NCBI GenBank assembly: GCA_018263115.1
Contig: JADFDC010000002.1
Coordinates: 1 to 64,000 of the forward strand
Source of the DNA: Thiobacillus sp.
GTDB taxonomy: Bacteria > Pseudomonadota > Gammaproteobacteria > Burkholderiales > Thiobacillaceae
Reading direction: 5' to 3'
DNA: 64,000 nt
Positions 32,197 to 53,582 of this stretch are shown piece after piece. Below the pieces are notes generated by a model. The model made no database searches. It was not told the DNA's origin and saw only the letters and a list, made by a program, of their open reading frames with translations. Each line of letters opens with the position of its first letter. The first letter of the stretch is position 1. A program made the position numbers and the translations under genes.

Positions 32197-33618
32197 TTAT
32201 AGAGATTTACGCAAATTGGCGGGCGGAATTTGCAGGGATTCGCGATATTTAGCGACCGTTCGACGTGCCACAACTATCCCTTGTTGGCCCAGCACTTCAG
32301 CAATCTGGCCGTCGGAAAGGGGTTTTTTCAGATTTTCGGCGCCGACTAACTGTTTGATCAGGGCTCGGATAGCGGTTGAGGAGCAGGCCCCACCTGTTTC
32401 GGTGGCGACATGGCTACCGAAAAAGTATTTCAGTTCATAAAGACCACGTGGGGTCATCATGTATTTTTGCGTGGTAACCCTGGAAATGGTGGATTCATGC
32501 AAACCCACGGCATCGGCAATTTCCCTGAGCACCAGGGGACGCATGGCAACTTCGCCATGCTCGAAGAAATTTCGCTGGCGGTCAACAATGGCTTGGGAAA
32601 CACGCAGGATCGTGTCAAAACGCTGCTGTACGTTTTTAATCAGCCATTTGGCTTCCTGCAATTGTGTGGACAGTTGGCCGCCTGACTCGCGATGGCGGGA
32701 GAGAATGTCGGCATACACCCGATTGATGCGCAGCTTGGGCATGGCATCCGGATTTAAGCTGGCCAGCCAGAAGCCCTTGATTTTCCTGATGTAAACATCC
32801 GGTACCACATAATGGATATCGCCCGCGCCATAATTTGCGCCCGGCTTGGGATTGAGATTCAGAATAAGCTGACGAGCTGCGCGTAATTCTGCATCATCGA
32901 TATGTAATGCCTTTTTGAGCTTGCCAATATCTCTTGCTGCTAGCAAGCTCAGGTGTTCTCCCACGATTTTCATGGCGATATCGCGGGATTCGGTGGTTTC
33001 GGGAAGTGCTTTCAACTGCAGCATCAGGCATTCGCTCAAATTGCGTGCGCCAACACCAGTAGGGTCCAGATTCTGCAAGTGTCTTAACGCGATTTCGAGT
33101 TCTTCGAACTCAATTTCCAGTTCCGGGGCCAGGCTGGCGGAAATTTCTTCAAGGGATTGCTCCAAATAGCCATCTTCATCAAGCGCATCAATCAGCATGG
33201 TGACCAGGGCCTGATCGCGCCTTGTCAGGGGTACCAGGGAAATTTGCGAGGTCAGGTGTTCGCGCAGGGTAGTGGAAGCGGCGGCCATCTGAGGCCCCGA
33301 ATCATCTTCGTCATCTCCGCCACGGGCGCTGTAATCGTTCCAGTCCATTTCATCCAGACTGGTCTGCCGGTCATCCGGGCTGCTTTCGGGCTGAGATTCG
33401 GTGGTGGTTTCAGTGGGGCTCTCGCTGGCGGATGGCTGGGGGGCGTGCGTTTCTTCTTCGCTTTCCCCTTCGCGTTCCAGCAGTGGATTTTCCTGGAGAA
33501 TCTGCTCGAGTTCCTGGTTCAGTTCAAGCGTGGACAACTGCAGCAGGCGAATGGATTGCTGCAGTTGAGGAGTAAGCGCTAGATGCTGGGAAAGCTTGAG
33601 CTGGAGGTTGTGCTTCAT
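32197..33618 (-). CDS. rpoN: RNA polymerase sigma-54 factor
   Basis: A 473-residue sigma-54. The N-terminal activator-interacting region is Gln/Leu-rich ([33 protein letters not shown]). An acidic linker follows (~45-115), then the core-binding and -12 recognition domains. The C-terminal RpoN box is [13 protein letters not shown], which reads the -24 element. It is the only sigma-54 in the window and the obvious partner of the activator at 52052-53482 and the -24/-12 sites at 39782 and 53567. It follows lptB in the standard order. Confidence 0.97.
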
Positions 33619-37055: not shown

Positions 37056-39026
37056 ATGCATAACACACTCGAATTTGTCCTGATCATGCTGGCAGCAGCC
37101 GTTCTGGTGACCATCCTGGCGCGGGCATTCAAATTGCCGACCATGTTGGGGTACCTGCTCACCGGCATAACCATCGGCCCCTACGCGCTGGGCTGGATTC
37201 CGGACACGCCGCAAACCCGGTATCTGGCCGAATTTGGCGTCGTCTTCCTGATGTTCTCCGTAGGGCTGGAATTCAGTCTGCCGCGCATGCTGGCGATGCG
37301 TGCAACCGTATTTGGTTTCGGCGGCGCACAAGTAGCCGTAACGCTGTTTGCAACCCTTGGCCTCGCATGGCTGATGGGCATGGATATTCCGGCAGGGGTG
37401 GCCCTGGGAGGTGCCCTGGCCATGTCCTCGACAGCCATTGTCTCAAAGCTGCTTTCCGAACGGGTTGAGTTGCAGTCACCGCATGGAAAGCTGGCGATGG
37501 GCGCGCTGCTGTTTCAGGATCTTGCGGTGGTTCCGCTGCTGATTGTGATCCCGGCGCTGGCCATGCCGGCCGGTTCGCTTGCGCAGACCATGCTGTGGGC
37601 CTTGCTGAAGGCGGCGCTGGTATTGTCGGTGCTGTTGTATTTCGGGCAGAAGCTGATGCGGCCATGGTTCCATCGCGTGGCGGGCGCCAAATCGCCCGAA
37701 CTGTTCACGCTCAACCTGCTGTTCATAACACTGGGCCTGGCCTTCCTGACCGAGCAAGCTGGTTTGTCGCTGGCGCTGGGAGCTTTTCTGGCGGGCATGC
37801 TTGTATCCGAAACCGAATACCGCTATCAGGTTGAAGACGACATCAAGCCCTTCCGCGATGTGCTGCTGGGATTGTTTTTTATCACGGTGGGCATGCGACT
37901 CGATTTGAGCGTGGTTTGGCAGCAGATTCTTCAGGTTCTGATCATGCTGGGTGTCATTGTCGCGGGCAAGGCGTTGGCGATCTGGGCGCTTTGCCGGGGA
38001 TTCAGACATGGGCAAACCACCTCCATCCGCACGGCGCTAGCGTTGGCGCAAGGGGGGGAATTCGGCTTGGTATTGCTTGCCCTGGCGGCTGATCAGAGTT
38101 TGATGAGCGTGGAAACTGCTCAGCCAGTGCTTGCGGCGTTGGTGATTTCAATGTTGATCGCGCCCTTGTTGATCCATCGCATGGAATGGATTACCGGCAA
38201 ACTGGCCGGAAGCGAATGGGCTAATCGTGCCAAGGAAGTGCATGACATCGCGCTCAAGACATTCGGCAAAAGTGGCCATGTCATTCTTTGCGGCTATGGA
38301 CGAAGCGGCCAAAGTCTGGCACGTTTTCTGGAGACGGAAAGCATACCGTTCGTGGCGCTGGATTTCGATCCAGAACGTGTCAAGGCTGCCGCCGCCGCTG
38401 GCGAGAGTGTGGTGTTTGGCGATCCCGCGAAACGCGAGGTATTGATCGCGGCAGGCATTTCGCGCGCCCGGGCGATGGTCATCACGTTTTCGGATTTGAA
38501 TGCAGCCATGTCCATTCTCCGGCATGTACAGGACATCAAACCTGAATTGCCCGTAGTTGTGCGCACCATAGACGACAGTCATATCGACCAGTTGAAGGAT
38601 GCCGGCGCGACAGAAGTCGTGTCGGAAGTCATGGAGGGGTCGCTCATGCTGGCTTCCCATGCGCTGATGCTGTTGGGCATCCCGCTTTCGCAGGTCTTGA
38701 AGCGCATCCGGTCCGTGCGCGAATCACGCTACGCGTTGATGCGCGGATTCTTCCGCGGCGCGACGGATACGGATGAAGACCTTGATGAGGAAGCGCAGCC
38801 TCGGCTGTTTTCGGTGTTAATGACTGCTCAATCCGCAGCGACCGGCAAAAAGCTTGACGATCTGCATCTCGATTCGCTGTCGGTGGAGGTGATTGCGGTC
38901 AGGCGGCGCGGCATCCGAGGGGTTAATCCCGGTCCGCAAACTGTGATTGAAGAAGGTGATGTGCTGGTGCTGCGCGGAATAGCGGAGAATCTGGCTGCAG
39001 CCGAAATCAGTCTGCTTCAGGGATGA
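37056..39026 (+). CDS. Kef-type cation:proton antiporter (CPA2 family)
   Basis: A 656-residue membrane protein. The first ~385 residues form ~12 helices of the CPA2 exchanger fold (LPTMLGYLLTGITIGPYALG, FGVVFLMFSVGLEFSL, GLSLALGAFLAGMLVSETEYR). A RCK/TrkA-N domain with a nucleotide-binding motif (VILCGYGRSGQSLARFLE, ~410-535) and a TrkA-C domain (~570-656) follow. It probably exchanges K+ or Na+ for H+ under redox or pH control. This architecture with TrkA-C resembles betaproteobacterial KefB/KefC-like proteins rather than true KefC with its KefF partner. Confidence 0.92.
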   Translation: MHNTLEFVLIMLAAAVLVTILARAFKLPTMLGYLLTGITIGPYALGWIPDTPQTRYLAEFGVVFLMFSVGLEFSLPRMLAMRATVFGFGGAQVAVTLFATLGLAWLMGMDIPAGVALGGALAMSSTAIVSKLLSERVELQSPHGKLAMGALLFQDLAVVPLLIVIPALAMPAGSLAQTMLWALLKAALVLSVLLYFGQKLMRPWFHRVAGAKSPELFTLNLLFITLGLAFLTEQAGLSLALGAFLAGMLVSETEYRYQVEDDIKPFRDVLLGLFFITVGMRLDLSVVWQQILQVLIMLGVIVAGKALAIWALCRGFRHGQTTSIRTALALAQGGEFGLVLLALAADQSLMSVETAQPVLAALVISMLIAPLLIHRMEWITGKLAGSEWANRAKEVHDIALKTFGKSGHVILCGYGRSGQSLARFLETESIPFVALDFDPERVKAAAAAGESVVFGDPAKREVLIAAGISRARAMVITFSDLNAAMSILRHVQDIKPELPVVVRTIDDSHIDQLKDAGATEVVSEVMEGSLMLASHALMLLGIPLSQVLKRIRSVRESRYALMRGFFRGATDTDEDLDEEAQPRLFSVLMTAQSAATGKKLDDLHLDSLSVEVIAVRRRGIRGVNPGPQTVIEEGDVLVLRGIAENLAAAEISLLQG

Positions 39027-39055
39027 AAAAAGCGGCCTCATAGGCCGCTTTTTTC
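39026..39055. terminator. Bidirectional terminator between kef-type gene and prepilin gene
   Basis: AAAAAAGCGGCC and GGCCGCTTTTTT form a near-perfect stem with a TCATA loop; the A-run and T-run serve each strand. It separates the convergent genes ending at 39026 and 39077. Confidence 0.92.
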
Positions 39056-39076: not shown

Positions 39077-39745
39077 TCAGAACAGGATGGCTGCTCCGCA
39101 ATTAGCTTCTCCAGAGCCTGCGAGCCAGGCGCCAGTGGTAGCATCGTAGCAGTTAGCGGCGGTAGGTGCGGTACCGCCCGCAGCATACGCTGAAAAACGC
39201 AGGGTGCCCCGTTCCGCACCATCGCCACCGTCAACTTTTCGATCCAGTTCCGCCAGCACTTCTACCGGAATCTGGGGCCCGGTTTTCAGGTTGTGCCGAT
39301 TCGTGGCTGTCCCTGATTCGACGGCATAAACGTTGTCGTAAATCATCTGCATGCGCGCATTCCAGGGGTTGGTCGGAGTAGTGGTGTTGGATTCAGTAGC
39401 ATTGTAAGTGAACGTGCCGTTAATGAATCCTGCATGCGAAAGGTGATCCCAGACCGCGATTGATTCCAGACCGGACTCAATTTGGCCGTCCCCATCACCC
39501 ACGGTAGTGGAAGCCACATTCGGGATTTGTGTACCAGCCAGATTAAAATCGCCCGGCAGTGCACGATAACGATCCTGAAAACCGAAATAGGCTGCTTTGA
39601 CGCCGTCAATCTGATTCGCCAGATTTCTTACGCGCGCACTGGTGATCAGCTCCTGGCCTTTAAGGATGCCACCCAGCAAAAGACCGATAATGACCAATAC
39701 GATGGCAATCTCGATCAAGGTAAAACCGCGTTGATTGTGCTTCAT
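39077..39745 (-). CDS. Type IV prepilin-like protein (probable major or accessory pilin)
   Basis: A 222-residue prepilin. The leader is MKHNQRG followed by FTLIEIAIVLVIIGLLLGGILKG, so PilD-type cleavage after Gly7 and Glu5 of the mature protein are intact. The long N-terminal helix continues through ELITSARVRNLANQIDGVKAAYFGFQDRY, a pattern common in MSHA-type and environmental pilins. The C-terminal region has one cysteine pair (ANCYDATT, EANCGAA) likely to close a D-loop. A strong AAGGAG precedes the ATG, and a perfect sigma-54 site lies 36 bp upstream. It is transcribed separately from the assembly operon, which fits a highly expressed subunit. Confidence 0.9.
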   Translation of the reverse strand: MKHNQRGFTLIEIAIVLVIIGLLLGGILKGQELITSARVRNLANQIDGVKAAYFGFQDRYRALPGDFNLAGTQIPNVASTTVGDGDGQIESGLESIAVWDHLSHAGFINGTFTYNATESNTTTPTNPWNARMQMIYDNVYAVESGTATNRHNLKTGPQIPVEVLAELDRKVDGGDGAERGTLRFSAYAAGGTAPTAANCYDATTGAWLAGSGEANCGAAILF

Positions 39746-39781
39746 TTAGCACTCCTTGTAGTTGGGACCCAAGTTTAAATG

Positions 39782-39797
39782 TGCAAAATACATGCCA
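39782..39797 (-). promoter_or_regulatory. Sigma-54 (-24/-12) promoter of the prepilin gene
   Basis: On the minus strand the sequence reads TGGCATGTATTTTGCA, which fits the TGGCAYRN4TTGCW consensus at every defined position with the exact 10-bp GG-to-GC spacing. Transcription should start near 39771, about 26 nt before the ATG. An enhancer-binding regulator is required; the gene at 52052-53482 is the natural candidate. Confidence 0.85.
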
Positions 39798-39976
39798 AAA
39801 TTTTCCCATATCAAAACAAGCCATAACCATGGATTGACAAGGCAAGTACTAGGGAATTAGGAGAGGGTTCTTGGAAATCGTGACGAATAATCAACAGGGA
39901 TGCCGGGATTTTGTCATTCTTCACATCAAGTTTTATGCAAGGGTGCCGACACTGAATAAGTCCTCAGTTTCATGAC

Positions 39977-41713
39977 TTGGCAAAAATTTTGAATACCACC
40001 ATCGGCCGCTACGCGGCGTTTCTGACTTCCATTTCGCATACTCGCTGGTTGGCGTTCATGCTGCTTAGTCTGCATGTGGCGGTGGCATTCGAAACCGGCG
40101 AGGAGTGGGTCAGAGCCTTTCTGATGGCTCACTATGGTTTTTTTCTGTTGTGGCAACCGCTGCTGCAAGGACAGCAGAAACTGGAAACACGCCTGGCGGT
40201 TCCAGTTCTTGGGATGGCAGCCCTGCTGATTTTGGTACCGAGCGGGTGGATGATTGCACTGTGGGTGGCGGTATTGGCGGGGTTGACTGGCGCAGTTGCG
40301 GCGGGAATGCCTGGCAGGGGGCAGCGCTGGATTTATCTTCTGGCGCTGACTTACCTGCTGACCTTGCTTTTGTTATGGATCATGCCAAGGGTGTTGGCGG
40401 ATCAGAGTCTGCCAGCATTGCTGCGTCAGCTTGTTCAATGGGGACTGCCGGTTCTGCCCGCGCTGATTCTCATCTCACGCGGCAGGATGCCTGCTGCCAT
40501 GGCCAACGCGATGGACTTTTTCTACGGATTGATGGTATTCCTGATGGTGGTGGTTCTGGCGCTGGGCACGTTTGCCGTTGTCGCGGTAACAAAATCAGGC
40601 TATGCCATTTCACTGGCGCAGACCCTGACTGGCATGGCTGTGCTATTGATTGTAATGAGTTGGCTATGGAATCCGCGCGCGGGATTTTCCGGGTTGGGCG
40701 GAGTCATGTCGCGCTATTTGCTGTCCGTGGGTCTGCCGTTCGAGGAATGGGCGCGCGGGTTGGCGACGCGTGCCGAGCGCGAGCGGGACCCGGAAACGTT
40801 TGTGCGCGATGCATTGGCGGATACTTCGTCGTTGGCCTGGATCAGCGGCGGAACCTGGACGACGGCACGAGGGAGAGGGGAGTACGGCAAGCGATCAGCG
40901 CATGTTTCCAACCATGCTTTTCACGGGCTTGCCCTGGAGTGGTTTTCGGAACGGCCGCTTACGCCTGCGCTATCACTGCATGTCAGGCTGTTGTCTCAAT
41001 TGCTGGGCTATTTTTATGCCAGCAAGGTTCGAGAACAGACGCTGCGGGATCAGGCCTACACCCAGGCGATTCATGAAACCGGCGCCCGGCTGACGCACGA
41101 TGTCAAAAATATCCTTCAATCCATGAAAACCCTGATGACCGCGGCAGAAACCAGCGGCCCGGAAGATGCGGAGCGGCTTCAGGCCTTGCTGGTGCGGCAA
41201 ATTCCGCAACTCGCGCAACGTTTGCAGAATACCGTCGACAAGCTCAAACAGCCGCATGAGGTGGACAGTAATTTGATCAATGCTGAAACCTGGTGGAGAG
41301 ATTTGCAGGCGCGTTACGCGCATGACCGGGTTCAGTTCGCTACGCTTGAGGAGGGATGTGATGGAAAGTTGCCTCAGGATCTGTTCGACAGCGTGGCGGA
41401 TAATCTTCTGACAAACGCCTTACGCAAGCGCAAGGCGGATGGTCAGCCGGTTGCTGTTAAAGCAGAGTTATCCTGTAAGGAGGGATTTGTGTTCTCGGTG
41501 GAGGATGATGGTGATCCCGCCCCGGATCATGTGGCGCGAAATCTTTTTCTGGGGCCAGTCAACTCGGAAATGGGCTTGGGGGTGGGGCTTTATCAGGCTG
41601 CCCGACAAGCCTCCATGTTAGGTTTTGAGTTGAGAATGGTCGAGAATCGTTCCGGGAATGTCTTGATAAGATTGATGCCTAAAGACAGCCTCCTGCCGGA
41701 CAGACACGAGTAG
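39977..41713 (+). CDS. PrsK-like membrane sensor histidine kinase
   Basis: A 578-residue kinase. The first ~225 residues contain seven or eight membrane helices with little loop sequence, followed by a cytosolic linker. The H-box is TGARLTHDVKNILQSMKTL with His374 in an HDxKN context, the form seen in PrsK-type kinases of PEP-CTERM/EPS systems. The ATPase N-box is DNLLTNALRK and the G-box MGLGVGLYQAARQA. The start is TTG at 39977 or nearby. It converges on the pilus operon and overlaps the end of the Cys-rich prepilin gene by 35 bp. Its partner is probably the sigma-54 activator at the other end of the operon. The signal sensed is unknown. Confidence 0.82.
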   Translation: MAKILNTTIGRYAAFLTSISHTRWLAFMLLSLHVAVAFETGEEWVRAFLMAHYGFFLLWQPLLQGQQKLETRLAVPVLGMAALLILVPSGWMIALWVAVLAGLTGAVAAGMPGRGQRWIYLLALTYLLTLLLLWIMPRVLADQSLPALLRQLVQWGLPVLPALILISRGRMPAAMANAMDFFYGLMVFLMVVVLALGTFAVVAVTKSGYAISLAQTLTGMAVLLIVMSWLWNPRAGFSGLGGVMSRYLLSVGLPFEEWARGLATRAERERDPETFVRDALADTSSLAWISGGTWTTARGRGEYGKRSAHVSNHAFHGLALEWFSERPLTPALSLHVRLLSQLLGYFYASKVREQTLRDQAYTQAIHETGARLTHDVKNILQSMKTLMTAAETSGPEDAERLQALLVRQIPQLAQRLQNTVDKLKQPHEVDSNLINAETWWRDLQARYAHDRVQFATLEEGCDGKLPQDLFDSVADNLLTNALRKRKADGQPVAVKAELSCKEGFVFSVEDDGDPAPDHVARNLFLGPVNSEMGLGVGLYQAARQASMLGFELRMVENRSGNVLIRLMPKDSLLPDRHE

Positions 41714-42503
41714 TAAGCAGCGTAGTTGGAATCCAGATCAGCATGTCATCAAACTCCTTGACGAGTTCGGATGAGCTGTTGTCCGCGGGTTTGTAGGGTA
41801 TGCGACTGACGAATTTCTGGTCCGCATCGGAAAGTGCGTTTTCCAGCTCATCCGTGCCGGCTGGCGTTGTCAAGGTCGTTCCATTTGCGCTGAGCGCGGC
41901 GTAACCATTGGGGCCATGGGATAACACTACAACAGGAACATCCCTGGCAATATTGCCGCTGCTGCAACCGCCGCTTGAGGTATCACAGACCTGGTTTGGT
42001 CCAATGCTTCCGCTTGTGAATCCTAAAGATCGGTTGGCGTAAGTTGTGCTGACACTGTATTGGAGTCTGTTGCCCCATGCGTCCTGTGATGCCGCACCCA
42101 GCGTAACCCACGGAAGGTTTCCTTGAGCTTGGGTGCAAGTTTCACCTGTTCGATTTTCCAGACCGTCTCCATCTGTATCGGGACAAGGCAAATAATGACG
42201 CAGTATTGCGTTAGGCCATGATCCTGATGCAACGAGTGGATTTGCGCAGTAAGTGTTACAACTTGTGGTATCGCAAGAGTGTGTGGGACTGCAACTGCTT
42301 CCAGAACAACTTATGGAGCATACGTGGTTGACTGCATACCCCAGAATTGCATCTCGCGCTTCTTCAAGTGTCCGTTTTGTTTCAATTGTTCTTCGGGATT
42401 CGATTTGCGCGGTTAGAGGAACCAGCAAGCCACCCGCCAGAACAGTAAGGATAACCAGAACGATGGCCAGTTCGATCAGGGTAAAGCCGCGCTGAGTATT
42501 CAT
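41679..42503 (-). CDS. Cysteine-rich type IV prepilin-like protein
   Basis: A 274-residue prepilin: short leader MNTQRG, then FTLIELAIVLVILTVLAGGLLVPL with Glu5 retained. It has 12 cysteines, six of them within 25 residues (~62-86, pattern C-3-C-4-C-5-C-4-C-3-C). A conserved LPCPDTDGDGLENRTGETC segment of the kind seen in large MSHA-type prepilins follows. The size suggests a minor or tip subunit rather than the filament backbone. It is the last gene of the operon, overlapping the MshK-like gene by 4 bp. Confidence 0.88.
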   Translation of the reverse strand: MNTQRGFTLIELAIVLVILTVLAGGLLVPLTAQIESRRTIETKRTLEEARDAILGYAVNHVCSISCSGSSCSPTHSCDTTSCNTYCANPLVASGSWPNAILRHYLPCPDTDGDGLENRTGETCTQAQGNLPWVTLGAASQDAWGNRLQYSVSTTYANRSLGFTSGSIGPNQVCDTSSGGCSSGNIARDVPVVVLSHGPNGYAALSANGTTLTTPAGTDELENALSDADQKFVSRIPYKPADNSSSELVKEFDDMLIWIPTTLLTTRVCPAGGCL

Positions 42504-42859
42504 GGCATTTCCTTGGCTTCTGATCGACGGATGCCATGCGCTTCATAAACGCGGCCCTGGTCAAGCGTCTGGCCAGGCTTGAGCGTTTTGCCTCTTGCAT
42601 TGAACTCAAAGGATTCGCCTGCCTGCGGTTTGCCATTGATCCAGCGGGTGGAATGGCCGTCACTCCGGATAACGACCCCATCATAGGTCACTGGTTTTGG
42701 GGGAGAGCTGTCGGTCTGAACTGATTGAGTTCGATTTTGCAGCCTGGCTTTTTCCAGGCCGGCCCGCTGCTCAGAGGTGTAGAACAGCCGGCCAAGATCG
42801 GCAAGGCTTGCTGGCGGCGCCAGCAGCGAAAACAGAATCAGACCGAGCGCGGCTTTCAT
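42500..42859 (-). CDS. MshK-like periplasmic pilus assembly protein
   Basis: A 119-residue protein with a signal peptide (MKAALGLILFSLLAPPASLA). It has a C-terminal beta domain (TYDGVVIRSDGHSTRWINGKPQ ... LKPGQTLDQGRVYE) resembling MshK and PilP/GspC-type proteins that link the inner-membrane platform to the secretin. It is short for PilP and has no lipobox. It overlaps the MshJ-like gene by 4 bp upstream and the prepilin by 4 bp downstream. Confidence 0.72.
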   Translation of the reverse strand: MKAALGLILFSLLAPPASLADLGRLFYTSEQRAGLEKARLQNRTQSVQTDSSPPKPVTYDGVVIRSDGHSTRWINGKPQAGESFEFNARGKTLKPGQTLDQGRVYEAHGIRRSEAKEMP

Positions 42860-43437
42860 GCCCCCCCCACTTTTCTGGCGCTATACCATAGCAGTTCACA
42901 TTCCGCTTCCAGACCCGGCTGGTTGAGCATTTCGGGTTGGGGATTGCCGGTGCGGCTGAGCGTGCATGATTTTGTTCTGAACAGGCCTATGCCGCTGGAA
43001 GCCAGCTTGTCCAGAAAAAGGGTCAGGTCGTTTTCAGTTAATAGCGGCATGCGCAGCTTCATCAGGGTTTGTTCCATCTCAGCGGAGTCAGATGAAGGGC
43101 TGGCAGGTTCAAAAGTGTATTGAACGCCATACAGGCGTGTGGACTCGTTAGATTTCTGGACGGCTTCCAGCCACGCCAGGCGGTCGCCACCGGCTGCCAC
43201 ACCCTTTTGCTCAAGGCGTTTGTAGGCAGAAAGATGGGACAGGATCAGATTTTTTTCCGCGCCCGACCGCATTAACTTGGATTGAGCGGCCCCTCGTGCC
43301 AGCTCGAGGTTCTCCTTCTGATTCCTTGTCGTTTCGGCATGTTTGCCGGTTGTAATCCAGACCCAGGCGGAGAGGGCCAGCGCGATCAGGAAGAACGCAA
43401 GCATTGGCAGCAAGGTGCGCAGGCTGGCAGTTTTCAT
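42856..43437 (-). CDS. MshJ/PilO-like pilus assembly protein
   Basis: A 193-residue bitopic protein: a membrane helix at ~8-29 (TLLPMLAFFLIALALSAWVWI), a coiled coil (~33-75, LELARGAAQSKLMRSGAEKNLILSHLSAYKRLEQ) and a small ferredoxin-like periplasmic domain. This is the PilO/GspM/MshJ layout. It would pair with the PilN-like part of the preceding protein. Sequence conservation in this family is low, so the call rests on layout and position (4-bp overlaps on both sides). Confidence 0.72.
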   Translation of the reverse strand: MKTASLRTLLPMLAFFLIALALSAWVWITTGKHAETTRNQKENLELARGAAQSKLMRSGAEKNLILSHLSAYKRLEQKGVAAGGDRLAWLEAVQKSNESTRLYGVQYTFEPASPSSDSAEMEQTLMKLRMPLLTENDLTLFLDKLASSGIGLFRTKSCTLSRTGNPQPEMLNQPGLEAECELLWYSARKVGGA

Positions 43438-44936
43438 GGCTGGGCACTCCGAAGCGTAAGTCCCATGGAAAAGCGGGCTTCCGCAAGTTGAGCATTTTGC
43501 AGGGTTGTACCCGAGAGCGTTGAGCTGGAGGCGGTGTTGACTGGCTCGCTGCGTAATACAACTTCACTTGCGCCAGACTGTGCGCGCAAGTCTTGCATGA
43601 AGTGGTTGATTTTGTCCTTGGCGTCACGGTAATTACCATTAAACGGCCATATGCGTGCGTCGAGCACAAGCGACTCTGCGGGGGAGGTAGTACCACCGGT
43701 GCTCAAACCACTGCTGTCCCAGGAAAGCTTGTCGAGCAAGATGTCGGGGTGGCGGTCAAGAACGTTCGACAGCACTTCATAGGCACGTCGCGGCGTATGA
43801 TTTGCCGCCTCGATCCGGCCGGCGGTTTCAACCAGCCGCGAGAGAGACTCGGCGGATAAAGGCACGTTTGGCAATTGTTTCAAGGTTTCCCGGTACAGCG
43901 TCTCACTCTGTCGGATGGAAGCCTCAATCTGCTGCATCTGCGAGGTGTTCGCGCGTACCTGAAGCCAGTTCCATCCTGCCATGGCGGCACCTGATACCAA
44001 TGCCGCGCTGCCTGCTGCGAATAATCCCCATTTGATCTGATGCAACCGGAATGACTTTGAAAGGGTGGCTGGCGCAAGATTTTCAAAATGCGGCTCCAGT
44101 GCTGCCAGATATACAACTTCAGGTGCGTTGACCATCAGTGCCGCGGGTATGCCCAGCCTGCGGCCAATTTCGTCCGCATCAAGCAGGCGGGTTTCGAACT
44201 GAGGGTCCGCGCCGAGTGAAGCTTGCGCGGACTGCAGCGTTCTGGACAGATCCAGAAGTGCAACTGTCAAACGCGCTTCGCGTGGAAAGATTCGCTGGCT
44301 TGAAAGATAAAGCTGAGTCTTGGATACCTCGTCCGCGATATTCAAGTTGGCGTTGCCCGCGTTGTCTGTACGGGTGAGCCGGGAAAAACGCAAGCGACCC
44401 TGCTGAAAATAGGAAAGCCTCAGCCCCGCAGATTGCCGGGAGGCGAGTAATACATGCGGGGCGGAAATCTTGAGCCGCTTAAGCACATTCTCGGCGGCAA
44501 GAGACATCAATGTCATGCCGGCAAACGGAATATTCTGCCTGCGGATTTCGGCGACCCAGGGTTGCAGCCATTCGCTGTCTGTCAGGGAAACCATCAGATA
44601 GCGGTCATCACGCCGGCCTTCACTGGCGCGTCCCTGTTGTATGGCGGCTGAATAGGGCGCGTTGCGGAAGATTTGCCGCAGCTTGCGCACCAGCAGTTCC
44701 TGGCGAGCGCGGCCAAGCACATGCGGAAGGGTTTCGAGACGGTAATCCTCGTCCACTGAGTCCACGATCAGCGTGACAGGAAGGCGACTGTGCTGCGCCA
44801 GCAGACTGGAAAAACGCTGGAGGCCTTCTTCAGTTGCAGGAACTTCAGCCAGCCAGTCCAGACTGCGCCAGCCCGCCAGCAGGACAAGTCCGCCACGCGG
44901 GCTGAGATAGACGAGGAGACGTTGACCCAGATTCAT
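43434..44936 (-). CDS. MshI-like protein (PilM-like plus PilN-like fusion)
   Basis: A 500-residue protein. The first ~300 residues are cytosolic and look like the actin-fold PilM/GspL-cyto domain (LLVYLSPRGGLVLLAGWRSLDW, PVTLIVDSVDEDYRLETLP). A single membrane helix at ~308-327 (WGLFAAGSAALVSGAAMAGW) leads into a coiled coil and a PilN-like periplasmic domain. Such fusions are typical of MshI rather than separate PilM and PilN. It bridges the ATPase/platform in the cytosol to the periplasmic MshJ/MshK-like proteins encoded next. Confidence 0.75.
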   Translation of the reverse strand: MNLGQRLLVYLSPRGGLVLLAGWRSLDWLAEVPATEEGLQRFSSLLAQHSRLPVTLIVDSVDEDYRLETLPHVLGRARQELLVRKLRQIFRNAPYSAAIQQGRASEGRRDDRYLMVSLTDSEWLQPWVAEIRRQNIPFAGMTLMSLAAENVLKRLKISAPHVLLASRQSAGLRLSYFQQGRLRFSRLTRTDNAGNANLNIADEVSKTQLYLSSQRIFPREARLTVALLDLSRTLQSAQASLGADPQFETRLLDADEIGRRLGIPAALMVNAPEVVYLAALEPHFENLAPATLSKSFRLHQIKWGLFAAGSAALVSGAAMAGWNWLQVRANTSQMQQIEASIRQSETLYRETLKQLPNVPLSAESLSRLVETAGRIEAANHTPRRAYEVLSNVLDRHPDILLDKLSWDSSGLSTGGTTSPAESLVLDARIWPFNGNYRDAKDKINHFMQDLRAQSGASEVVLRSEPVNTASSSTLSGTTLQNAQLAEARFSMGLTLRSAQP

Positions 44937-46135
44937 AGCGGAAGGTTGAACGCCATGTCATAAACCGGCAACAGCACGGTAATCATGAAGAATCCAAGCA
45001 GGATCGCCACAAACAGTATCAGGGCAGGTCCCAGTATCTTCAAACCGCGTTCAATGGAATCTGCGACTTCACGATTGTAAAAGTAGGTCACGTTGTCCAG
45101 CGCACGATCCAGCGCGCCAGTATTTTCGCCCACGCGCAGCATGCGGATCACCAGCGGCGGGAAAATGCCCAGGTTGGCGAAGGAGTCGGTCAGCCCGCGG
45201 CCTTCGGAAATCTGCTGGCCAGCCTGGCGGATACCTGCTGCGACAACACGGTTTCCGACGATGGCTTCGCTGGTCCGCAGCGACTCCAGGACGGTCACGC
45301 CAGAACGATACAAGAGAGAAAGATAGTGGGCGAATCTGGCCAGTATGACTTTCTTCAGAATGGCGCCAAGTATTGGCAGATTCAGCAACAAGCGATCACG
45401 CCACAACTGGCCTGCGGTGGTGCGCCTGGTCCAGACTATCAGAGCGGTCAGCAGGGTGGTAATCAGGAGCAGTAGCCACAAGCCGTTTTCGTTGAGCCAG
45501 TGGGCGGTTGCAAACATGGCCAGGGTGGAAGGCGGCGGCTGGATGTTGGCGGTTTTTAGAAATGGTTCGAAGCGTGGCACCATGTAACCCATCAGCACAC
45601 CCACGGCGATCAGCACAAATATCATGACAAAGGCTGGGTAGATCATCAGTCGCTGGGTTTGCGAGGCAGCTTCGTCCTGCCACTTGAGCGTGGTGGCCAG
45701 GTTTTCGAATACAACGTCGAGCCTGCCGGTTTGTTCGCCCGCTTTCACGACGCTGATGAACACGCTGTCGAATACGGAGGGATGCGCGGCGAGCGCTTGT
45801 GACAACACTTTGCCACCTTCCAGGTCTTCCAGCAGGGCGGACAGGATGTCACGGAAACTGTGCTTGTCCATGGTGTCGCGCAGATCGCGCAGGCCTTCCA
45901 GCAGCGGGATTCCAGCACGGGTAATCTGTTCGAGGTGAAAGCAGAAGGTAATGAGGTCGCGCCGGGTTATGCGCTCGCCGCCAGGCAGGGTTTCACGCCC
46001 CGTTTGACGCAGCGTGATGAGGTCCAGCCCCATGCGTTTCAGACGCAGTTCCAGATCTACTTCGTTGAGTGCAGCTAGCCAGCCACGGTTGGTGCGGCCG
46101 GTCTGGTCCATGGCGCGGTATTGGTAAAACGGCAT
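44933..46135 (-). CDS. mshG: MshG/PilC/GspF-family inner-membrane platform protein
   Basis: A 400-residue polytopic protein with the duplicated T2SSF domain: PFYQYRAMDQTGRTNRGWL start, LLEDLEGGKVLSQALAAHPSVFDSVFISVVKAGEQTGRLDVVFENLA, and a second copy ending LRVGENTGALDRALDNVTYFYNREV. Three or four membrane helices follow the usual pattern. It is the rotor/platform that couples the MshE ATPase to subunit assembly. It shares one base with the ATPase stop and overlaps the MshI-like start by 4 bp. Confidence 0.93.
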   Translation of the reverse strand: MPFYQYRAMDQTGRTNRGWLAALNEVDLELRLKRMGLDLITLRQTGRETLPGGERITRRDLITFCFHLEQITRAGIPLLEGLRDLRDTMDKHSFRDILSALLEDLEGGKVLSQALAAHPSVFDSVFISVVKAGEQTGRLDVVFENLATTLKWQDEAASQTQRLMIYPAFVMIFVLIAVGVLMGYMVPRFEPFLKTANIQPPPSTLAMFATAHWLNENGLWLLLLITTLLTALIVWTRRTTAGQLWRDRLLLNLPILGAILKKVILARFAHYLSLLYRSGVTVLESLRTSEAIVGNRVVAAGIRQAGQQISEGRGLTDSFANLGIFPPLVIRMLRVGENTGALDRALDNVTYFYNREVADSIERGLKILGPALILFVAILLGFFMITVLLPVYDMAFNLPL

Positions 46136-47832
46136 CAGACGCGTCCTGTCAGGTCAACGACACGGGAAACTTCGGCGAGGGAAGTCAGGCCTTCCAGAAC
46201 GCGGCGAATGCCGTCTTCCGCGAGCGGATGGTAGCCGCGTTCCTGCGCTGCCTGCCGCATTGCCTGCATGGGTGCGCCCGAGGCGATGAGCTCGTCCATG
46301 TTCGTATCCAGCCGCAGTACTTCGATCAGCGCCATACGGCCACGATAGCCCTTGCCATCACAATGCTCGCATCCAGTTGGCTGGTAGATCACAGGTTTGC
46401 CTGCTGCTTCCCAACCAAGCAGGTGGGCTTCATTTTCGTCGGGGGTATAAGGCGACTTGCAGTGCGGGCACAGCTTGCGTATCAGCCGCTGCGCCACCAC
46501 GCCAATGATGTTGCCAGCCATGATTCCGGGCGGGATGCCGATATCCAGCAGGCGCGGGAACACGCCCAGCGCGGAGTTGGTGTGCAGCGTGGTGAACACC
46601 TGATGGCCGGTCATGGCGGCACGAAAAGCCATTTCCGCCGTTTCCCTGTCGCGGACTTCGCCGACCAGAATGATGTCGGGATCCTGCCGCATGATGGAGC
46701 GGATGCCGTTGGCAAAATCCAGCTTTACGGTTTCATTGACCGAGGTTTGCCTCATGAGGGTGACCGGATATTCCACCGGATCTTCCAGGGTCATGATGTT
46801 GATGGTCTCGTTGTTCAGGTGTGAGAGCATCGAATACAGCGTGGTGGTCTTGCCTGACCCCGTCGGCCCGGTGATGATGAGGATGCCTTCAGGCCGTGCC
46901 ATCATGAGTTGCAACTGCCTGAGCGCATCCGGCGTGAAGCCCATGCTTTCCATCGGCATGATGGATTTCTCGCGGTCCAGAATGCGCAGAACGATATTTT
47001 CGCCATGAATGCCAGGCTGGGACGACACGCGGAAATCAATCGGCCGGCCATTTAACGTCAGCGACATGCGGCCATCCTGCGGTGCGCGGGTTTCCGCGAT
47101 ATTCATGCCGCACATGACCTTGAGCCGCACGGCGATACCCGGCCAGTAGGTTTTGTGCAGGCTGCGAACCTGTTCGAGCACGCCGTCGATGCGATAGCGA
47201 ATGCGCAGGAAGGCATGCTCTGGCTCGAAATGGATATCTGAGGAGCGGCGCTTGACCGCATCCACCAGCAGCGCACCGACCAGCCTGACGACAGGTTGGG
47301 TGTATTCTTCGACTTCGTGGGTAAAGCTTTGGTAATCGACTTCGCCGGTTTCGATTTCGCGCAGGATACCGTCCAGGGATAAGTCAAATCCGTAGAATAG
47401 GTCGATGTATTCAAGCAGCTGGGCTTCGCCTGCCAGCAGCGCGTCAATTTCCATCTGGCTGCCCAGACCGGCCTTGAGCTGGTCGAGCGCCACCACGTTG
47501 AACATGTCGGTCGTAGCCACCGTCAGCACATCACGTTCCTCGTCGTAGGCAATGGGCAGAAGGTGGTGGCGGCGGGCGAAATCTTCGGGTACCAGTTTCA
47601 AGGCATCGGGATCGGCGACGACCTGCGCGAGGTCGATCGCCTGGCTGCCCAGCGCATGAGCAAGCTGATCACGAAGCACTGCTTCAGTGATGAACCCAAG
47701 CGCCACAAGCTGGCGGCCGATTGGAAGACCGGTGGCTTTCTGCTCCTTGAGTGCGATGCGCAGCTGGTCAACCGTGATCAATCCCTGGGTGGCCAGGGAT
47801 TCGCCCATGCGGAGTTTTTTGCGCCTTTCCAT
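46135..47832 (-). CDS. mshE: MshE-type pilus extension ATPase with MshEN domain
   Basis: A 565-residue GspE/PilB-family ATPase. The N-terminus (8-60) has the tandem MshEN motif known to bind c-di-GMP in Vibrio MshE: RMGESLATQGLITVDQLRIA then PIGRQLVALGFITEAVLRDQL. The motor has Walker A GPTGSGKT (322-329), the Asp box, Walker B DPDIILVGEVRD (385-395), the His box and the zinc tetracysteine CPHC...CEHC (455, 458, 488, 491). All catalytic residues are in place, so filament extension may be tuned by c-di-GMP. There is no PilT-like retraction ATPase in the window. Confidence 0.95.
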   Translation of the reverse strand: MERRKKLRMGESLATQGLITVDQLRIALKEQKATGLPIGRQLVALGFITEAVLRDQLAHALGSQAIDLAQVVADPDALKLVPEDFARRHHLLPIAYDEERDVLTVATTDMFNVVALDQLKAGLGSQMEIDALLAGEAQLLEYIDLFYGFDLSLDGILREIETGEVDYQSFTHEVEEYTQPVVRLVGALLVDAVKRRSSDIHFEPEHAFLRIRYRIDGVLEQVRSLHKTYWPGIAVRLKVMCGMNIAETRAPQDGRMSLTLNGRPIDFRVSSQPGIHGENIVLRILDREKSIMPMESMGFTPDALRQLQLMMARPEGILIITGPTGSGKTTTLYSMLSHLNNETINIMTLEDPVEYPVTLMRQTSVNETVKLDFANGIRSIMRQDPDIILVGEVRDRETAEMAFRAAMTGHQVFTTLHTNSALGVFPRLLDIGIPPGIMAGNIIGVVAQRLIRKLCPHCKSPYTPDENEAHLLGWEAAGKPVIYQPTGCEHCDGKGYRGRMALIEVLRLDTNMDELIASGAPMQAMRQAAQERGYHPLAEDGIRRVLEGLTSLAEVSRVVDLTGRV

Positions 47833-47841: not shown

Positions 47842-48948
47842 CTACTTTTTCAGTTGGCTGATGCGCTTTTCAGCCTGGGTACGATTGAACCGCGTGGTCG
47901 GGCCAGCCAGCTTGAGCGCTGATTCGTAATAACGGATAGCAGCATCGGTCTGCTTTAGATGATCCAGGCTCACCGCCAGATTGAACGCGTAGTCAGCATT
48001 GCCGGGTTCAAGCTGGTGTGCATCAAAGTAAGCCTGCTCGGCATCCGACCAGCGTTTTTGATCGGCATACAAATTGCCCAGCGCGTAATACAGAAATCCG
48101 CTGGACTCGCGTGCGATCATGTTTTTGATACGGGATTCAGCCGCCACGGAATCCGTGGTGCCAAGAGTGTCGATCAGCGCGGCCTGGGCGATGGCATTGC
48201 GCGGAGAGATATCCAGCACGGCCTGATACAGCCGAATGGCTTCGGCGGATTGCCCCCTGGCTTGTGCAATGCCCGCCAGTCCAAGCAGGGCATCTGTATC
48301 AGGGCTGGCGCTGGTTCGCTGTTGATAGAGAGCCTGGGCTTCATCCAGCCTGCCAGCCTGGAATGCGGCATAGGCCTCTTCAAGCAGGTTGGAGCGTAGA
48401 GAAGGTGTTGGTATCAGAACCGAGCTTGAGGTACTCGGCTGCATTGTCGACGTAGAGGGCTGCCGCGCCGGAAGGCGGGCTGGTTTCATCTTGGCCGTTT
48501 GCGGTGTGGGCGGATTAGTAAGCACCGCTTCAGATTGTTCGCCGGAGTTTTCCTCGCGCACGGTTACCGGGGCGACCTCTGGCGGCGTGGTGGGTTGCGG
48601 TTGTGCGAGGCTGGGCGGCGGAATGATGGCAGGCGCAGCGGCTGTCCAGCTTTGGGGCTGGGTCATCCTGTAAAAATAGAAGCCATAGGCTGCCGCGATG
48701 AACACCGCAAGCAGGGCAGTTGTGGGCACCAGTCCAAGCGGCCAACGCCACTCGCGAATTTTGCCAGGATGAGCTATTTCTTCATCCTGGCCGGGAGGCT
48801 CCACCCATTCACGCCTGGGTTTCGACAGCGTGCTTGCCAGCGGTTCAAGCTCGAGTTCGTCCATGCCGTCTTCATTTACATTGACAGCTTTGGAATGACT
48901 GGCGTGGGACTGCTCTGCCTGCCTGAGGGCTTTGAGTAACAGGCTCAT
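47842..48948 (-). CDS. MshN-like TPR protein
   Basis: A 368-residue bitopic protein. The N-terminal MSLLLKALRQAEQ motif is shared by MshN and GspB-like proteins. A membrane helix lies at ~69-92 and a Pro/Thr-rich periplasmic spacer follows (~95-180). TPR repeats cover ~190-360 (YAAFQAGRLDEAQALYQQ, LYQAVLDISPRNAIAQAAL, NLAVSLDHLKQTDAAIRYYESALKL). It probably scaffolds the periplasmic part of the machine, near the secretin encoded just upstream (4-bp overlap). Confidence 0.78.
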   Translation of the reverse strand: MSLLLKALRQAEQSHASHSKAVNVNEDGMDELELEPLASTLSKPRREWVEPPGQDEEIAHPGKIREWRWPLGLVPTTALLAVFIAAAYGFYFYRMTQPQSWTAAAPAIIPPPSLAQPQPTTPPEVAPVTVREENSGEQSEAVLTNPPTPQTAKMKPARLPARQPSTSTMQPSTSSSVLIPTPSLRSNLLEEAYAAFQAGRLDEAQALYQQRTSASPDTDALLGLAGIAQARGQSAEAIRLYQAVLDISPRNAIAQAALIDTLGTTDSVAAESRIKNMIARESSGFLYYALGNLYADQKRWSDAEQAYFDAHQLEPGNADYAFNLAVSLDHLKQTDAAIRYYESALKLAGPTTRFNRTQAEKRISQLKK

Positions 48949-50705
48949 GGGGTGCTGCTGGTCCTCGCGGGCAGCAATCGCTGAAAGCGGCGCATTTCGT
49001 CATCCTGCAATGAGCCATCGGTGACAATGATGGGCCTCAGGAAAATCACCAGTTCGGTTTGGCTGTTCAGTCGTTCATGCTGACCGAAAATGGCGCCGAT
49101 TCCTTCCGGTCGGGACAGTCCGGGCAGTCCGTCGCGTGCGCCGCTGATGTCGTCCTGAATCAGGCCACCAAGAATGACCGTTTGACCGCTACGAACCTGA
49201 AGAAGCGATTCCATTTCACGTACCTGGATAACGGGCACCTTGTTGGGGATGGATACAGGGATGTCGGGATTGGGGTCGATTACATCGCCGACCTTGCGGG
49301 TGATGGTTGGGCGGACATTCAATGTGACCTGACCATTCTCACTCACTTGAGGCGTCAGGCTCATTACCAGGCCAATTGGGACGGTCTGAGCGGTGGTGGT
49401 GAATGACTTCGTGATGCCAGCATTGGCAGCGGTGGTGGTATCGGCCTTGACGTTGAAGTAAACAAGATTGTCGACCACCTTAAGTAAAGCAGTTTGATTG
49501 TTTAGCGCCATTAGCCTTGGACTGGAGAGCACCTTGGTTGAACCATAGGACTCAAGCAGATCGATTGTGGCCTTGAAATCCCACTTGTCATTGTTGGTGT
49601 AGGCGATGGAGAAGAACGGCGACAGGGAATTGGCCAGGTTTGTTTGTGCGGTAGGTGCGGTGGTAACGGACCAGCCGGTTGACAAGCCACTTGCGAGACT
49701 GGACCAATTAATGCCCGCCTTGTATTGATCCTTCAGGCGAATTTCTACAATCGTCGCCTCGATCATTACCTGGCGTTGCGATGCACTGGAAACCTTGTCG
49801 AGATATTCCTGTACCAGTTGGTGCTGCCGCTCGTTGGCAAAAACGGAAACCGTGCCGGCCACAGCATTGACAATGACTTCGCGCTCGCTATCACCGGGCT
49901 GCGGTGCAGCACTTTGCGATATGGCCGAACGAATAAGTTCCTGGTTTTTGGACAAGCTGTTCCTTGCGTTGTCATTGTCCCGGACATCAACCTGAATCCG
50001 ATTGGCTTCTGCTATTGCGGCACGTTCTTCAGACTTTTTCTGCTCTGCCTTGGTGGCGTAAAGTATGTTGACGATGTTGTCCTTCAGCACTACCCAGTAA
50101 TCATTATTGGACGTTGTGGTGACGTTGGTGTTGGAGTTATTGCCAGCAGTTGCGGAGCTCCCGCCAGATGTGACTGCGCCAGATCCGGTTGCGGAAATTT
50201 GCGATGCCACACCGATAGTGGAAGTTGTGTTGCGCGACAGATTGACGTAATTGACCTTGTAGGTTTTGAGGAAAGGCGTATCCGGCAGGATGCTGATGGT
50301 TTTGCCTTCCATCACATAACGCAAATTTGCCTGCCGTGCGATGCGATCAAGGATCGCAGGCAAAGGCTCGTTGACCGCGTTAAGCGAAACACGTCCGGTA
50401 ATGCCGGGGTGGATGTCGATGTTGAATTTGGTGTCGCGCGCGATTGAAAAAAGCAGGTCTTTCACGGCAACGTCGTTGACGACAACGGTATAGGTGGGAA
50501 CCGCCGGTGCGGGACGAGGTGGCGGCGTATAAGGGGCGGACTTGACCGGTGCTGGCGGCGGTGCGGTCTCGACTTTTGCCGGTTCCGCTTCACGCTGGAT
50601 GTGCCCGGGAGAAGTATCAAAAGCCTTTGGCGGTACGCAGCCGGACAGCAAGGGGACAAGACCAGTCCCGAAAATCAGGAATGCCAGGGCGGGGTGAAGA
50701 GTCAT
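48945..50705 (-). CDS. mshL: MshL-like outer-membrane secretin
   Basis: A 586-residue lipoprotein secretin with a lipobox at LLSGC (Cys23). An STN/N0 domain (~75-150; VAVKDLLFSIARDTKFNIDIHPGITGRVSLN) and an N1-like domain (EREVIVNAVAGTVSVFANERQHQLVQEYLDKV) lead to the secretin core, with the signature VPVIQVREMESLLQVRSGQTVILGGLIQDD. A Ser/Thr/Gly-rich low-complexity insert lies at ~165-195. It is the outer-membrane exit pore. No separate pilotin gene is seen; lipidation may do that job. Confidence 0.93.
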   Translation of the reverse strand: MTLHPALAFLIFGTGLVPLLSGCVPPKAFDTSPGHIQREAEPAKVETAPPPAPVKSAPYTPPPRPAPAVPTYTVVVNDVAVKDLLFSIARDTKFNIDIHPGITGRVSLNAVNEPLPAILDRIARQANLRYVMEGKTISILPDTPFLKTYKVNYVNLSRNTTSTIGVASQISATGSGAVTSGGSSATAGNNSNTNVTTTSNNDYWVVLKDNIVNILYATKAEQKKSEERAAIAEANRIQVDVRDNDNARNSLSKNQELIRSAISQSAAPQPGDSEREVIVNAVAGTVSVFANERQHQLVQEYLDKVSSASQRQVMIEATIVEIRLKDQYKAGINWSSLASGLSTGWSVTTAPTAQTNLANSLSPFFSIAYTNNDKWDFKATIDLLESYGSTKVLSSPRLMALNNQTALLKVVDNLVYFNVKADTTTAANAGITKSFTTTAQTVPIGLVMSLTPQVSENGQVTLNVRPTITRKVGDVIDPNPDIPVSIPNKVPVIQVREMESLLQVRSGQTVILGGLIQDDISGARDGLPGLSRPEGIGAIFGQHERLNSQTELVIFLRPIIVTDGSLQDDEMRRFQRLLPARTSSTP

Positions 50706-52039
50706 GTGCGGTTTTCCTCTTGCGGGAGGGTGGCGCGAATTTTTCCCGCCGTTCGTAAAAATACTTCAGGGGTGCGCAGTTCGGGCGGCAGGCCGGATAG
50801 CGCGATCAAGGCGGTCTGCCGGTCCTGAAATTCACCCGCGACCACTACCCAGGCTAAACCATTCTTTGTGCGTGCATTAAAGCCGCGAAGCGGCTGCGGA
50901 AACTGGTCTTGCTTGCCTTCAAGCAGGACAAAGGCTTCCTCGGCATTTTTGGCTGTCAGCACCTGAATGACGAAGGTGCTGGCAGGTGCACTTCTTATCC
51001 AGTTGGCGCTATCCGGAATCGAAGCATCAGTCATCGTTGACTCGACGGGTGTGGCGGCAACGGGCTGAACAGGCAGGGTGATTTTGGCAGCGGGAGGTGA
51101 CGTGAGCAGAGCTGGCGTAGCCTGCACTCCCAGTGCAAACCAGCTTAGATAGGCCAGCAACGTCAATCCAGCGGTAACGCCTGCCATGGCCCAGCCCCAT
51201 CGACGCAGCTTGATGGGGGGTAACCTTGCTGATTGCATTTCAGCGTCTTTTGCGGCCGCCTTGACATGCGCAACGCTAAGGTTGTGTGTTTCATCGCCAT
51301 ACGCGGCCAGCAAGGATTTGTCGGCCAGAATGTTGATGCGCCGCGACAGCCCACCGGAAAATCGGGCGATGGTTTTTACCACGGCATTGGAAAAAAGATC
51401 GGGGCCACGGTAGCCGGCCACCTGAAGACGGCTTCTCAAATAATTGCGGGTGTCGCTTTCGGAAAGCGGTGGCAATGTCAGGTTCAGGGTAATGCGGTCC
51501 TTGAACTGGCGAATCCGTGGGTCAGCCAGGGTCTGGTCCAGTTCGGGCTGGCCAAACAACACGATTTGCAGCAGCTTGTCCGAGGCCGTTTCAAGATTGG
51601 TCAGCAGACGCATGAACTCCAGGCTCTCAAGCGTCATGCCTTGCGCTTCCTCGACAAAGGCTACGACACGGCGGCCGCTGCCGTGACGGGAAAGCAGGGC
51701 ATTATTGAGTTGATCCAGCAGAATCTGGCGATTGCCTGCGGTCGTTCCGTTGACACCCAGATCAGACAGTATCGTGACGAGAATTTCATCGGGCTGCAAA
51801 GTGGGATTGCCCAGATAAACCGTGTCGATATTATCCGGCAGTTGCTGCTGCAGCATGCGGCAGAGCATGGTCTTGCCGCTGCCAACTTCGCCAACGACCT
51901 TGATCAATCCCTCGCCATGGGTGATCGCATACACCAGCGTGGCAAGCAAATCCCCGCGTTGCCCGCCTTCAAACCAGTAGTCGGTGTTGGGCGTGATGCG
52001 GAAAGGGGGATCGGTCAGGCCGAAATATTCAAGATACAA
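50702..52039 (-). CDS. MshM/ExeA-like AAA ATPase with C-terminal SPOR domain
   Basis: A 445-residue protein. The N-terminal ATPase is ExeA/MshM-like: MYLEYFGLTDPPFRITPNTDYWF, Walker A GEVGSGKT (50-57), Walker B-like VVAFVEEAQGM. A membrane helix at ~281-303 separates it from a periplasmic part that ends in a SPOR-like peptidoglycan-binding domain (~355-430; FVIQVLTAKNAEEAFVLLEG, WVVVAGEFQDRQTALIAL). ExeA-type proteins remodel or bind the wall so the secretin can assemble. It is the second gene of the operon, 12 bp after the regulator. Confidence 0.82.
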   Translation of the reverse strand: MYLEYFGLTDPPFRITPNTDYWFEGGQRGDLLATLVYAITHGEGLIKVVGEVGSGKTMLCRMLQQQLPDNIDTVYLGNPTLQPDEILVTILSDLGVNGTTAGNRQILLDQLNNALLSRHGSGRRVVAFVEEAQGMTLESLEFMRLLTNLETASDKLLQIVLFGQPELDQTLADPRIRQFKDRITLNLTLPPLSESDTRNYLRSRLQVAGYRGPDLFSNAVVKTIARFSGGLSRRINILADKSLLAAYGDETHNLSVAHVKAAAKDAEMQSARLPPIKLRRWGWAMAGVTAGLTLLAYLSWFALGVQATPALLTSPPAAKITLPVQPVAATPVESTMTDASIPDSANWIRSAPASTFVIQVLTAKNAEEAFVLLEGKQDQFPQPLRGFNARTKNGLAWVVVAGEFQDRQTALIALSGLPPELRTPEVFLRTAGKIRATLPQEENRT

Positions 52040-53566: not shown

Positions 53567-53582
53567 TGCCAGACTAATGCCA
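53567..53582 (-). promoter_or_regulatory. Near-consensus sigma-54 promoter of the regulator/pilus operon
   Basis: On the minus strand the site reads TGGCATTAGTCTGGCA. The essential GG and GC doublets are present with the right 10-bp spacing, and TGGCAT is exact. The -12 half is TGGC rather than TTGC, and position 7 is T rather than a purine. It lies about 85 bp upstream of the regulator GTG. Confidence 0.5.

Follow-up and report, generated by a model that had tools for sequence, protein, structure and literature searches.

A prepilin gene in a Thiobacillus sp. genome is preceded by TGGCATGTATTTTGCA, and the locus raises the question of whether this element is a genuine sigma-54 promoter and, if so, which proteins act through it. 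We analyzed the surrounding 64,000 nucleotides (positions 1 to 64,000 of contig JADFDC010000002.1; hereafter the window) together with related loci, and the features considered are collected in Table 1. Overall, the sequence evidence makes it very likely that a sensor-regulator pair switches on the probable major pilin via this sigma-54 promoter, separately from the assembly machine.

Table 1. Coordinates of promoter elements, candidate regulatory sites and genes at the prepilin locus, in window positions.
Feature	Position	Strand	Basis or remark
rpoN (sigma-54), full length	32197..33618	-	above curated cut-off; acts in trans
Intrinsic terminator AAAAAAGCGGCC TATGA GGCCGCTTTTTT	39026..39054	-	folding energy about -23 kcal/mol
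Prepilin, 222 aa, class III signal RGFTLIE, two invariant C-terminal cysteines	39077..39745	-	N_methyl above cut-off
Predicted leader, 26 nt	39746..39771	-	start inferred from standard -12 geometry
Sigma-54 -24/-12 promoter TGGCATGTATTTTGCA	39782..39797	-	sequence match, conservation
IHF-like site, weak	39827..39839	-	between dyads and promoter, 2 mismatches
Dyad B GTTGATTATTCGTC, proposed activator site	39882..39895	-	center about -117 from predicted start
Dyad A TGACAAAATCCCGGCA, proposed activator site	39901..39916	-	20 bp upstream of dyad B, about -137
Membrane histidine kinase, proposed sensor	39977..41713	+	divergent from prepilin; invariant His374 in THDxKN
Second prepilin, 274 aa, last gene of assembly operon	41679..42503	-	
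119-aa assembly-operon protein, no family match	42500..42859	-	homologues in named loci
193-aa assembly-operon protein, no family match	42856..43437	-	homologues in named loci
500-aa assembly-operon protein, no family match above cut-off	43434..44936	-	homologues in named loci
GspF/PilC/MshG-type inner membrane protein	44933..46135	-	T2SSF
MshE/PilB-type ATPase, MshEN (c-di-GMP-binding type) domain	46135..47832	-	PF05157, NF053729 above cut-offs
TPR protein, MshN-like position	47842..48948	-	
MshL-like secretin	48945..50705	-	TIGR02519 247.7 bits, cut-off 250.2
ExeA/MshM-like ATPase	50702..52039	-	AAA_22; XrtA-associated ATPase model below cut-off
NtrC-type response regulator, GAFTGA and Walker A/B, proposed sigma-54 activator	52052..53482	-	domain matches, motifs
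Perfect dyad TTGTCGAAAAATCGACAA, proposed autoregulatory site	53546..53563	-	before regulator gene

A sequence-only reading of the window had placed TGGCATGTATTTTGCA on the minus strand at 39782-39797 with a full consensus fit, followed by a leader of ~26 nt to an AAGGAG site, and both points held. The element fits TGGCAYRN4TTGCW at all 12 defined positions; relative to the strict form TGGCACG, one T replaces C at a position where Y is tolerated. The GG at -25/-24 and the GC at -13/-12, 10 bp apart and in their TGGCAYR and TTGCW contexts, are all present. Transcription is predicted to start at 39771 (+/-2), 12 nt past the -12 C, giving a leader from 39771 to 39746 in which AAGGAG (39757-39752) lies 6 nt ahead of the prepilin ATG (39745). 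By itself, this match is not striking, since near-matches to the sigma-54 consensus (at most one mismatch) occur in the window at the level of shuffled sequence (4 observed, 3.76 expected). Genome-wide (2.35 Mb), eight exact matches were found versus none for a reversed control. One of the other seven precedes galE, as identified by family match, and others precede genes for a periplasmic-binding-type protein and an ANTAR-like regulator (translations judged by eye; without an NCBIfam match at 1e-30). Also judged by eye, one precedes a secreted-protein gene and one lies between an XrtA/PEP-CTERM-type glycosyltransferase gene and an asparagine synthase-like gene; two (L004 and L006) have no clear target gene.

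Relatives of the prepilin provided the decisive comparison. A search with the prepilin gave hits in 90 of the 117 family genomes (E up to 0.001), many via the N-terminus only, and upstream DNA was read at 30 loci (window included) and at 19 more; L019 and L038 have no upstream sequence, and L021 has a doubtful start codon. The close loci (n = 29, window included) are those of the genome's own genus, g4 and g11 with upstream sequence. A -24/-12 site fitting at least 10 of 12 positions is present in 28 of these 29 and a 9/12 site in the remaining one, always 34-41 nt before the prepilin ATG. When the 16-mer with the highest score in a fixed search interval is taken at each close locus, GG, TT and GC are each kept in 29/29, and two spacer positions outside the scoring carry A and T, respectively, each in 27/29. 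The loci are related, so the counts given here and below are not independent events, and the nulls ignore kinship. On these comparative grounds, TGGCATGTATTTTGCA is a genuine, conserved site that very probably serves as a sigma-54 promoter; conservation across loci settles that the site is real, and the earlier promoter assignment is backed by comparison.

In g5-g7 (18 loci), the best match within 400 nt is a variant such as AGGCCCGTTTATTGCA, fitting 9-11 of 12 positions and lying 12-217 nt before the chosen start, which constitutes weaker evidence. At L024, L026, L029 and L032-L037, 12-14 nt separate the end of the variant site from the ATG, which would leave a predicted leader of 2-4 nt; translation may be leaderless there, the start codon may be wrong, or another promoter may be used. 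At L022, L023, L027 and L028 a similar upstream ORF of 27-28 codons starts after the variant promoter and overlaps the prepilin ATG, and no such ORF was seen in the other 14 g5-g7 loci.

Outside the family, we scanned named genomes with the prepilin alignment and took the best 80 of 536 loci (hereafter the named loci), at least 6 of which are records of the window's own family; L060, L065, L074, L079, L080 and L086 are records of family genomes counted elsewhere. Among these best 80 of 536, a site of at least 10/12 lies within 120 nt in 46 of the 49 loci with a divergent kinase up to 4.5 kb away versus 4 of the 31 without a kinase nearby (L060, L065, L080 and L125), the latter group including contigs short of upstream sequence. 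Restricting the kinase-less loci to those with at least 3.5 kb upstream left 3 of 17 with the site (L065, L080 and L125). A Markov null derived from the named loci gave a 10/12 match within 120 nt in 1.4% of generated sequence. We also approached the association from the kinase, which has a match in 51 of the 369 genomes that make up the class sample (about one in seven, own genome included). From these 51 genomes we drew 20 loci, each from a different family. Eleven of the 20 stretches held a prepilin, and 8 of those 11 had the site. The other nine stretches (up to ~4.9 kb, two of them cut by contig ends) held no prepilin, which shows that the kinase is not always near one. A good promoter is missing in 3/49 kinase-adjacent named loci and in 3/11 kinase-anchored loci, one promoter-less locus (L126 = L242) being the same record in both sets. 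Two kinase-linked prepilin loci, L248 and L250, carry perfect dyads but lack a good -24/-12 site close to the translation start that was chosen; perhaps that start is wrongly assigned, or the promoter is more distant.

The gene behind the promoter has the features of a type IV prepilin: G(-1), F(+1), E(+5), an N-terminal helix and a pilin fold were all found. Its AlphaFold model (pLDDT 94.4, helix 9-59) gave one Foldseek match at E<0.001, a type IVb pilin, with type IV pilins next. Against solved chains, the best VIA-align Z was a middling 8.5 over 143 residues, and the top sixteen rows were type IV pilins or type II pseudopilins; the fold alignment used 39 of 81 available prepilins. A sequence profile of the prepilin matches PilE and one more pilin. 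Because a strong terminator, missed by our pattern scan, follows the gene, the prepilin is probably a one-gene unit apart from the assembly operon, in line with the earlier proposal that the promoter splits the two. The same proposal had called the prepilin an orphan, which is wrong: it belongs by synteny to an MSHA-like pilus locus and lies next to the divergent kinase. Sigma-54 control, the one-gene unit with its terminator and the invariant cysteines fit a role as the major subunit, and we infer that the 222-aa protein is probably the major pilin.

Sites of an activator type stand upstream of the promoter. The sequence-only reading had mentioned neither these tandem dyads, nor the kinase, nor the dyad before the regulator gene. 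The prepilin dyad emerged only by comparison with the region before the regulator gene, where TTGTCGAAAAATCGACAA is of the same kind (GTCG-N6-CGAC); perfect inverted repeats sought in each upstream region gave nothing consistent. The half-sites GTCG and CGAC, six bases apart, also occur upstream of relatives' prepilin genes, and the 29 close loci align gap-free over two dyads 20 bp apart with the consensus sequences TGACGGAAATCCGGCA and GTCGTATTTTCGTCA, the half-site columns being kept in 19 to 29 of 29. The two dyads of the window are imperfect, with 2 and 3 mismatches to GTCGN6CGAC (2 for dyad B); relative to the close-loci consensus, dyad B has 4/15 and dyad A 4/16 mismatches. Scored against a consensus derived from the same 29 related loci, dyad B has at most 3/15 mismatches in 25/29 (null 0.07%), and dyad A, at the fixed 20-bp offset, at most 5/16 in 29/29 (null 0.03%). 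With nulls of 5.6 to 9.8% across groups, a dyad with at most one mismatch was found in 15/29 close loci, 12/18 g5-g7 loci, 15/49 named loci with the kinase and 8/27 named loci without it. The kinase-less named loci too exceed the null, and four of their eight (L060, L065, L080 and L125) also carry the promoter. In g5-g7, prepilin and regulator lie on separate contigs, and 12/18 prepilins still keep such a dyad, along with the variant promoter.

Genome-wide counts depend on the pattern used. The fitted dyad pattern GTYGWWWWWTCGWC, made after both sites were seen, occurs at 3 places in the 2.35-Mb genome versus 1 in the reversed control, with 0.06 matches expected in the window from shuffles. 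One match lies 84 bp upstream of the promoter and one 65 bp before the regulator gene; the third (L260; G000 C54:88527-88540) lies on another contig, in a region to which a histidine kinase model matches. GTCGN6CGAC with at most one mismatch is not enriched in the window (20 observed, 28.7 expected), nor is TGTCGN6CGACA in the genome, where it occurs once, equal to the reversed control. An IHF-like site with at most one mismatch is present in 16/29 close loci (null 5.8%); that of the window has 2.

Exact GTCGN6CGAC precedes the regulator gene in 22 of 30 loci, window included. Among 20 further loci from other genera, one (g4) clearly shows the dyad and one has a single-mismatch match, and on these loci the idea that all relatives keep it was rejected. 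CTCTGGCACAAT is present in 29/30 regulator loci, that is, in all 29 of g11, the window alone lacking it, and in g11 the dyad position begins one base after it. CACAAT in CTCTGGCACAAT is similar to the -10 element of a sigma-70 promoter, which would put the transcription start under the dyad. An operator over the start region is a placement typical for repression, and because of this placement the regulator probably represses its own operon via the dyad. It is possible, though we doubt it, that the dyad instead activates the regulator operon or has no effect on it. A 10/12 sigma-54-like sequence, TGGCATTAGTCTGGCA, at 53567-53582 in the window would favor that reading, but no relative among the 30 regulator loci keeps a 10/12 match at this position, and the placement of the dyad directly after CTCTGGCACAAT points to repression. 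Apart from TGGCATTAGTCTGGCA, no sigma-54 control of the assembly operon was found. The repression arm could be limited to lineages that keep the dyad before the regulator (g1, g4 and g11 here).

The regulator itself, encoded by the first gene of the assembly operon, comprises receiver, sigma-54 interaction and Fis-type domains with the GAFTGA loop present. It was matched in 79/117 family genomes at E<=1e-100, with 85-88% identity in g11. Its score against TIGR02915 (PrsR) is 369.5 bits, below the cut-off of 502.6, and a tree groups the window regulator with its g11 relatives in a separate clade, whose nearest neighbor, across a long branch, is PrsR. The genome separately holds PrsK and PrsR above their cut-offs, NtrC above cut-off, and a further regulator, called PilR by adjacency only, whose neighbor is a kinase carrying a PilS membrane domain. 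For the window kinase, HATPase_c alone is above cut-off in Pfam, and an alignment that took in 30 of 46 relatives shows invariant His374 (THDxKN), N480, G533 and G535. No PilS membrane domain, PAS or HisKA is listed for it at E up to 5, and it is absent from the 21 TIGR02916 (PrsK) matches of the genome. L187 of the same genome is a kinase with a PilS-like six-helix membrane domain, PAS and HisKA; in profile comparisons of the window kinase with the genome's PrsK and PilS-type kinase, the kinase core only aligns. As judged from these assignments, kinase and regulator are neither PilSR nor PrsKR: separate PrsKR, NtrC and PilS-type systems in the genome imply that they are another NtrC-type pair.

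The presence of those other systems raises the alternative that the sigma-54 promoter is driven by PilR or PrsR instead of the window regulator. The genome encodes the PrsK-PrsR pair, NtrC and the regulator beside the PilS-type kinase, and elsewhere PilR is reported to control pilA (PMC6058289) and Npa to control pilE (PMC6528607). We consider this alternative improbable: a dyad like that of the prepilin stands before the gene of the window regulator, and promoter presence tracks the neighboring kinase among the best 80 of 536 named loci, as described above. The earlier suggestion of a tie to an activator 13 kb away is likewise backed by the similar dyad upstream of both genes. A tie through linkage to rpoN fared differently: because RpoN acts in trans, closeness to its gene is no evidence of regulation, and prepilin, antiporter and rpoN are grouped in other genomes too. 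We rejected this closeness as evidence, as it looks like shared backbone; of the best 80 of 536 named loci, 25 had an RpoN match in the stretch retrieved, and many of the others are short contigs.

At 12 of the best 80 of 536 named loci, regulator matches lie 2-5 kb beyond the prepilin or before it. These were considered as the cognate regulator and rejected, since 9 of the 10 with an ORF long enough for the tree fall in the group with the genome's own NtrC; the tenth (L127) has a very long branch, and L131 and L134 were left out.

The mechanism that we favor is activation of the pilin by the window pair: the sequences show elements that are conserved and occur together, and we infer that kinase and regulator act through them. 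The kinase would phosphorylate the NtrC-type regulator, which would bind both tandem dyads, at about -117 and -137 relative to the predicted start. The bound regulator would then loop over, IHF possibly helping, and drive RpoN polymerase to transcribe the pilin gene. At its own gene, the regulator would occupy the perfect dyad, which would overlie the start region of a sigma-70-like promoter, and would probably repress the operon. That an overlapping sigma-70 promoter (TTGATA-18-TATTTT, 39814-39785) transcribes the prepilin, with the sigma-54 match secondary, is very improbable. This one sigma-70-like match, at 9/12 positions, does overlap the sigma-54 site, but chance alone would supply ~0.9 of its kind in the stretch. 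Only 6/29 close loci (window included) carry any 9/12 match within 110 nt, one (L017) of the other five has it at nearly the same place, and the -24/-12 site stands at one place in all 29.

Two-component sigma-54 control of pilins is already known from PilSR: the PilS-PilR-RpoN system controls pilA in Pseudomonas. Related accounts describe control of pilA by PilR (PMC6058289), control of pilE in commensal Neisseria by Nps-Npa-RpoN-IHF with other pilus genes outside RpoN control (PMC6528607), and PEP-CTERM promoters that combine an activator motif with a -24/-12 site before single-gene units (PMC1569441, PMC9850573). The window system resembles PilSR-pilA and Nps-Npa-pilE in its membrane kinase, NtrC-type regulator, upstream sites and sigma-54 promoter on the pilin gene alone, and resembles Nps-Npa further in IHF (its site weak in the window) and in other pilus genes not under RpoN. 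Unlike both, its regulator lies in the assembly operon, its kinase is divergent from the prepilin and its machine is MSHA-like; unlike PilS, the kinase lacks the PilS membrane domain, PAS and HisKA, and a PilS-type kinase is found elsewhere in the genome. PrsK-PrsR offers a second parallel, the regulator being nearest PrsR in the tree (by a long branch) and an activator motif plus -24/-12 site preceding a one-gene unit; in contrast, the regulator is below the PrsR cut-off, the kinase is not matched and the target is a prepilin. The locus thus appears to work like PilSR-RpoN-pilA without passing as PilSR. Among the papers listed by searches of an open-access library, none described the kinase-regulator pair.

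Here, a different kinase family and a regulator not passing as PrsR or NtrC appear to do the job of PilSR for an MSHA-like pilus, and the cis elements (the paired upstream dyads, the promoter and the dyad ahead of the regulator gene) form a readable code that offers a testable handle on the pilus system. More tentatively, the arrangement might be a two-component pilus switch, in which the phosphorylated regulator would turn the pilin on and shut the sigma-70 operon of the machine and itself, so that production of the subunit and of the machine would alternate, and c-di-GMP would add a second level of control through the ATPase; we regard this extended scheme as rather unlikely.

At L061, L067, L093, L103 and L137, among 10 loci inspected, two extra genes stand between kinase and prepilin, one for an ABC-2 membrane permease-like protein by eye (about 250-290 aa) and one for a protein of ~240 aa; the window is without them.

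The assembly operon is likened to MSHA by a secretin closest to MshL, an MshEN ATPase, an MshG-type protein, a TPR protein and an ExeA-like ATPase, the last of which is named ExeA/MshM-like from its position; the gene order is presumably that of msh loci. Unlike MSHA, the prepilin is not recognized as MshA, the locus has its own two-component system and the MshL score is 247.7 versus a cut-off of 250.2. Neither Pfam (above cut-off) nor NCBIfam yielded a match for the proteins of 500, 193 and 119 aa, whose homologues keep this gene order in many named loci of beta- and gammaproteobacteria. The MshEN domain is above cut-off in the assembly ATPase, and pilus extension may also be gated by c-di-GMP via this enzyme.
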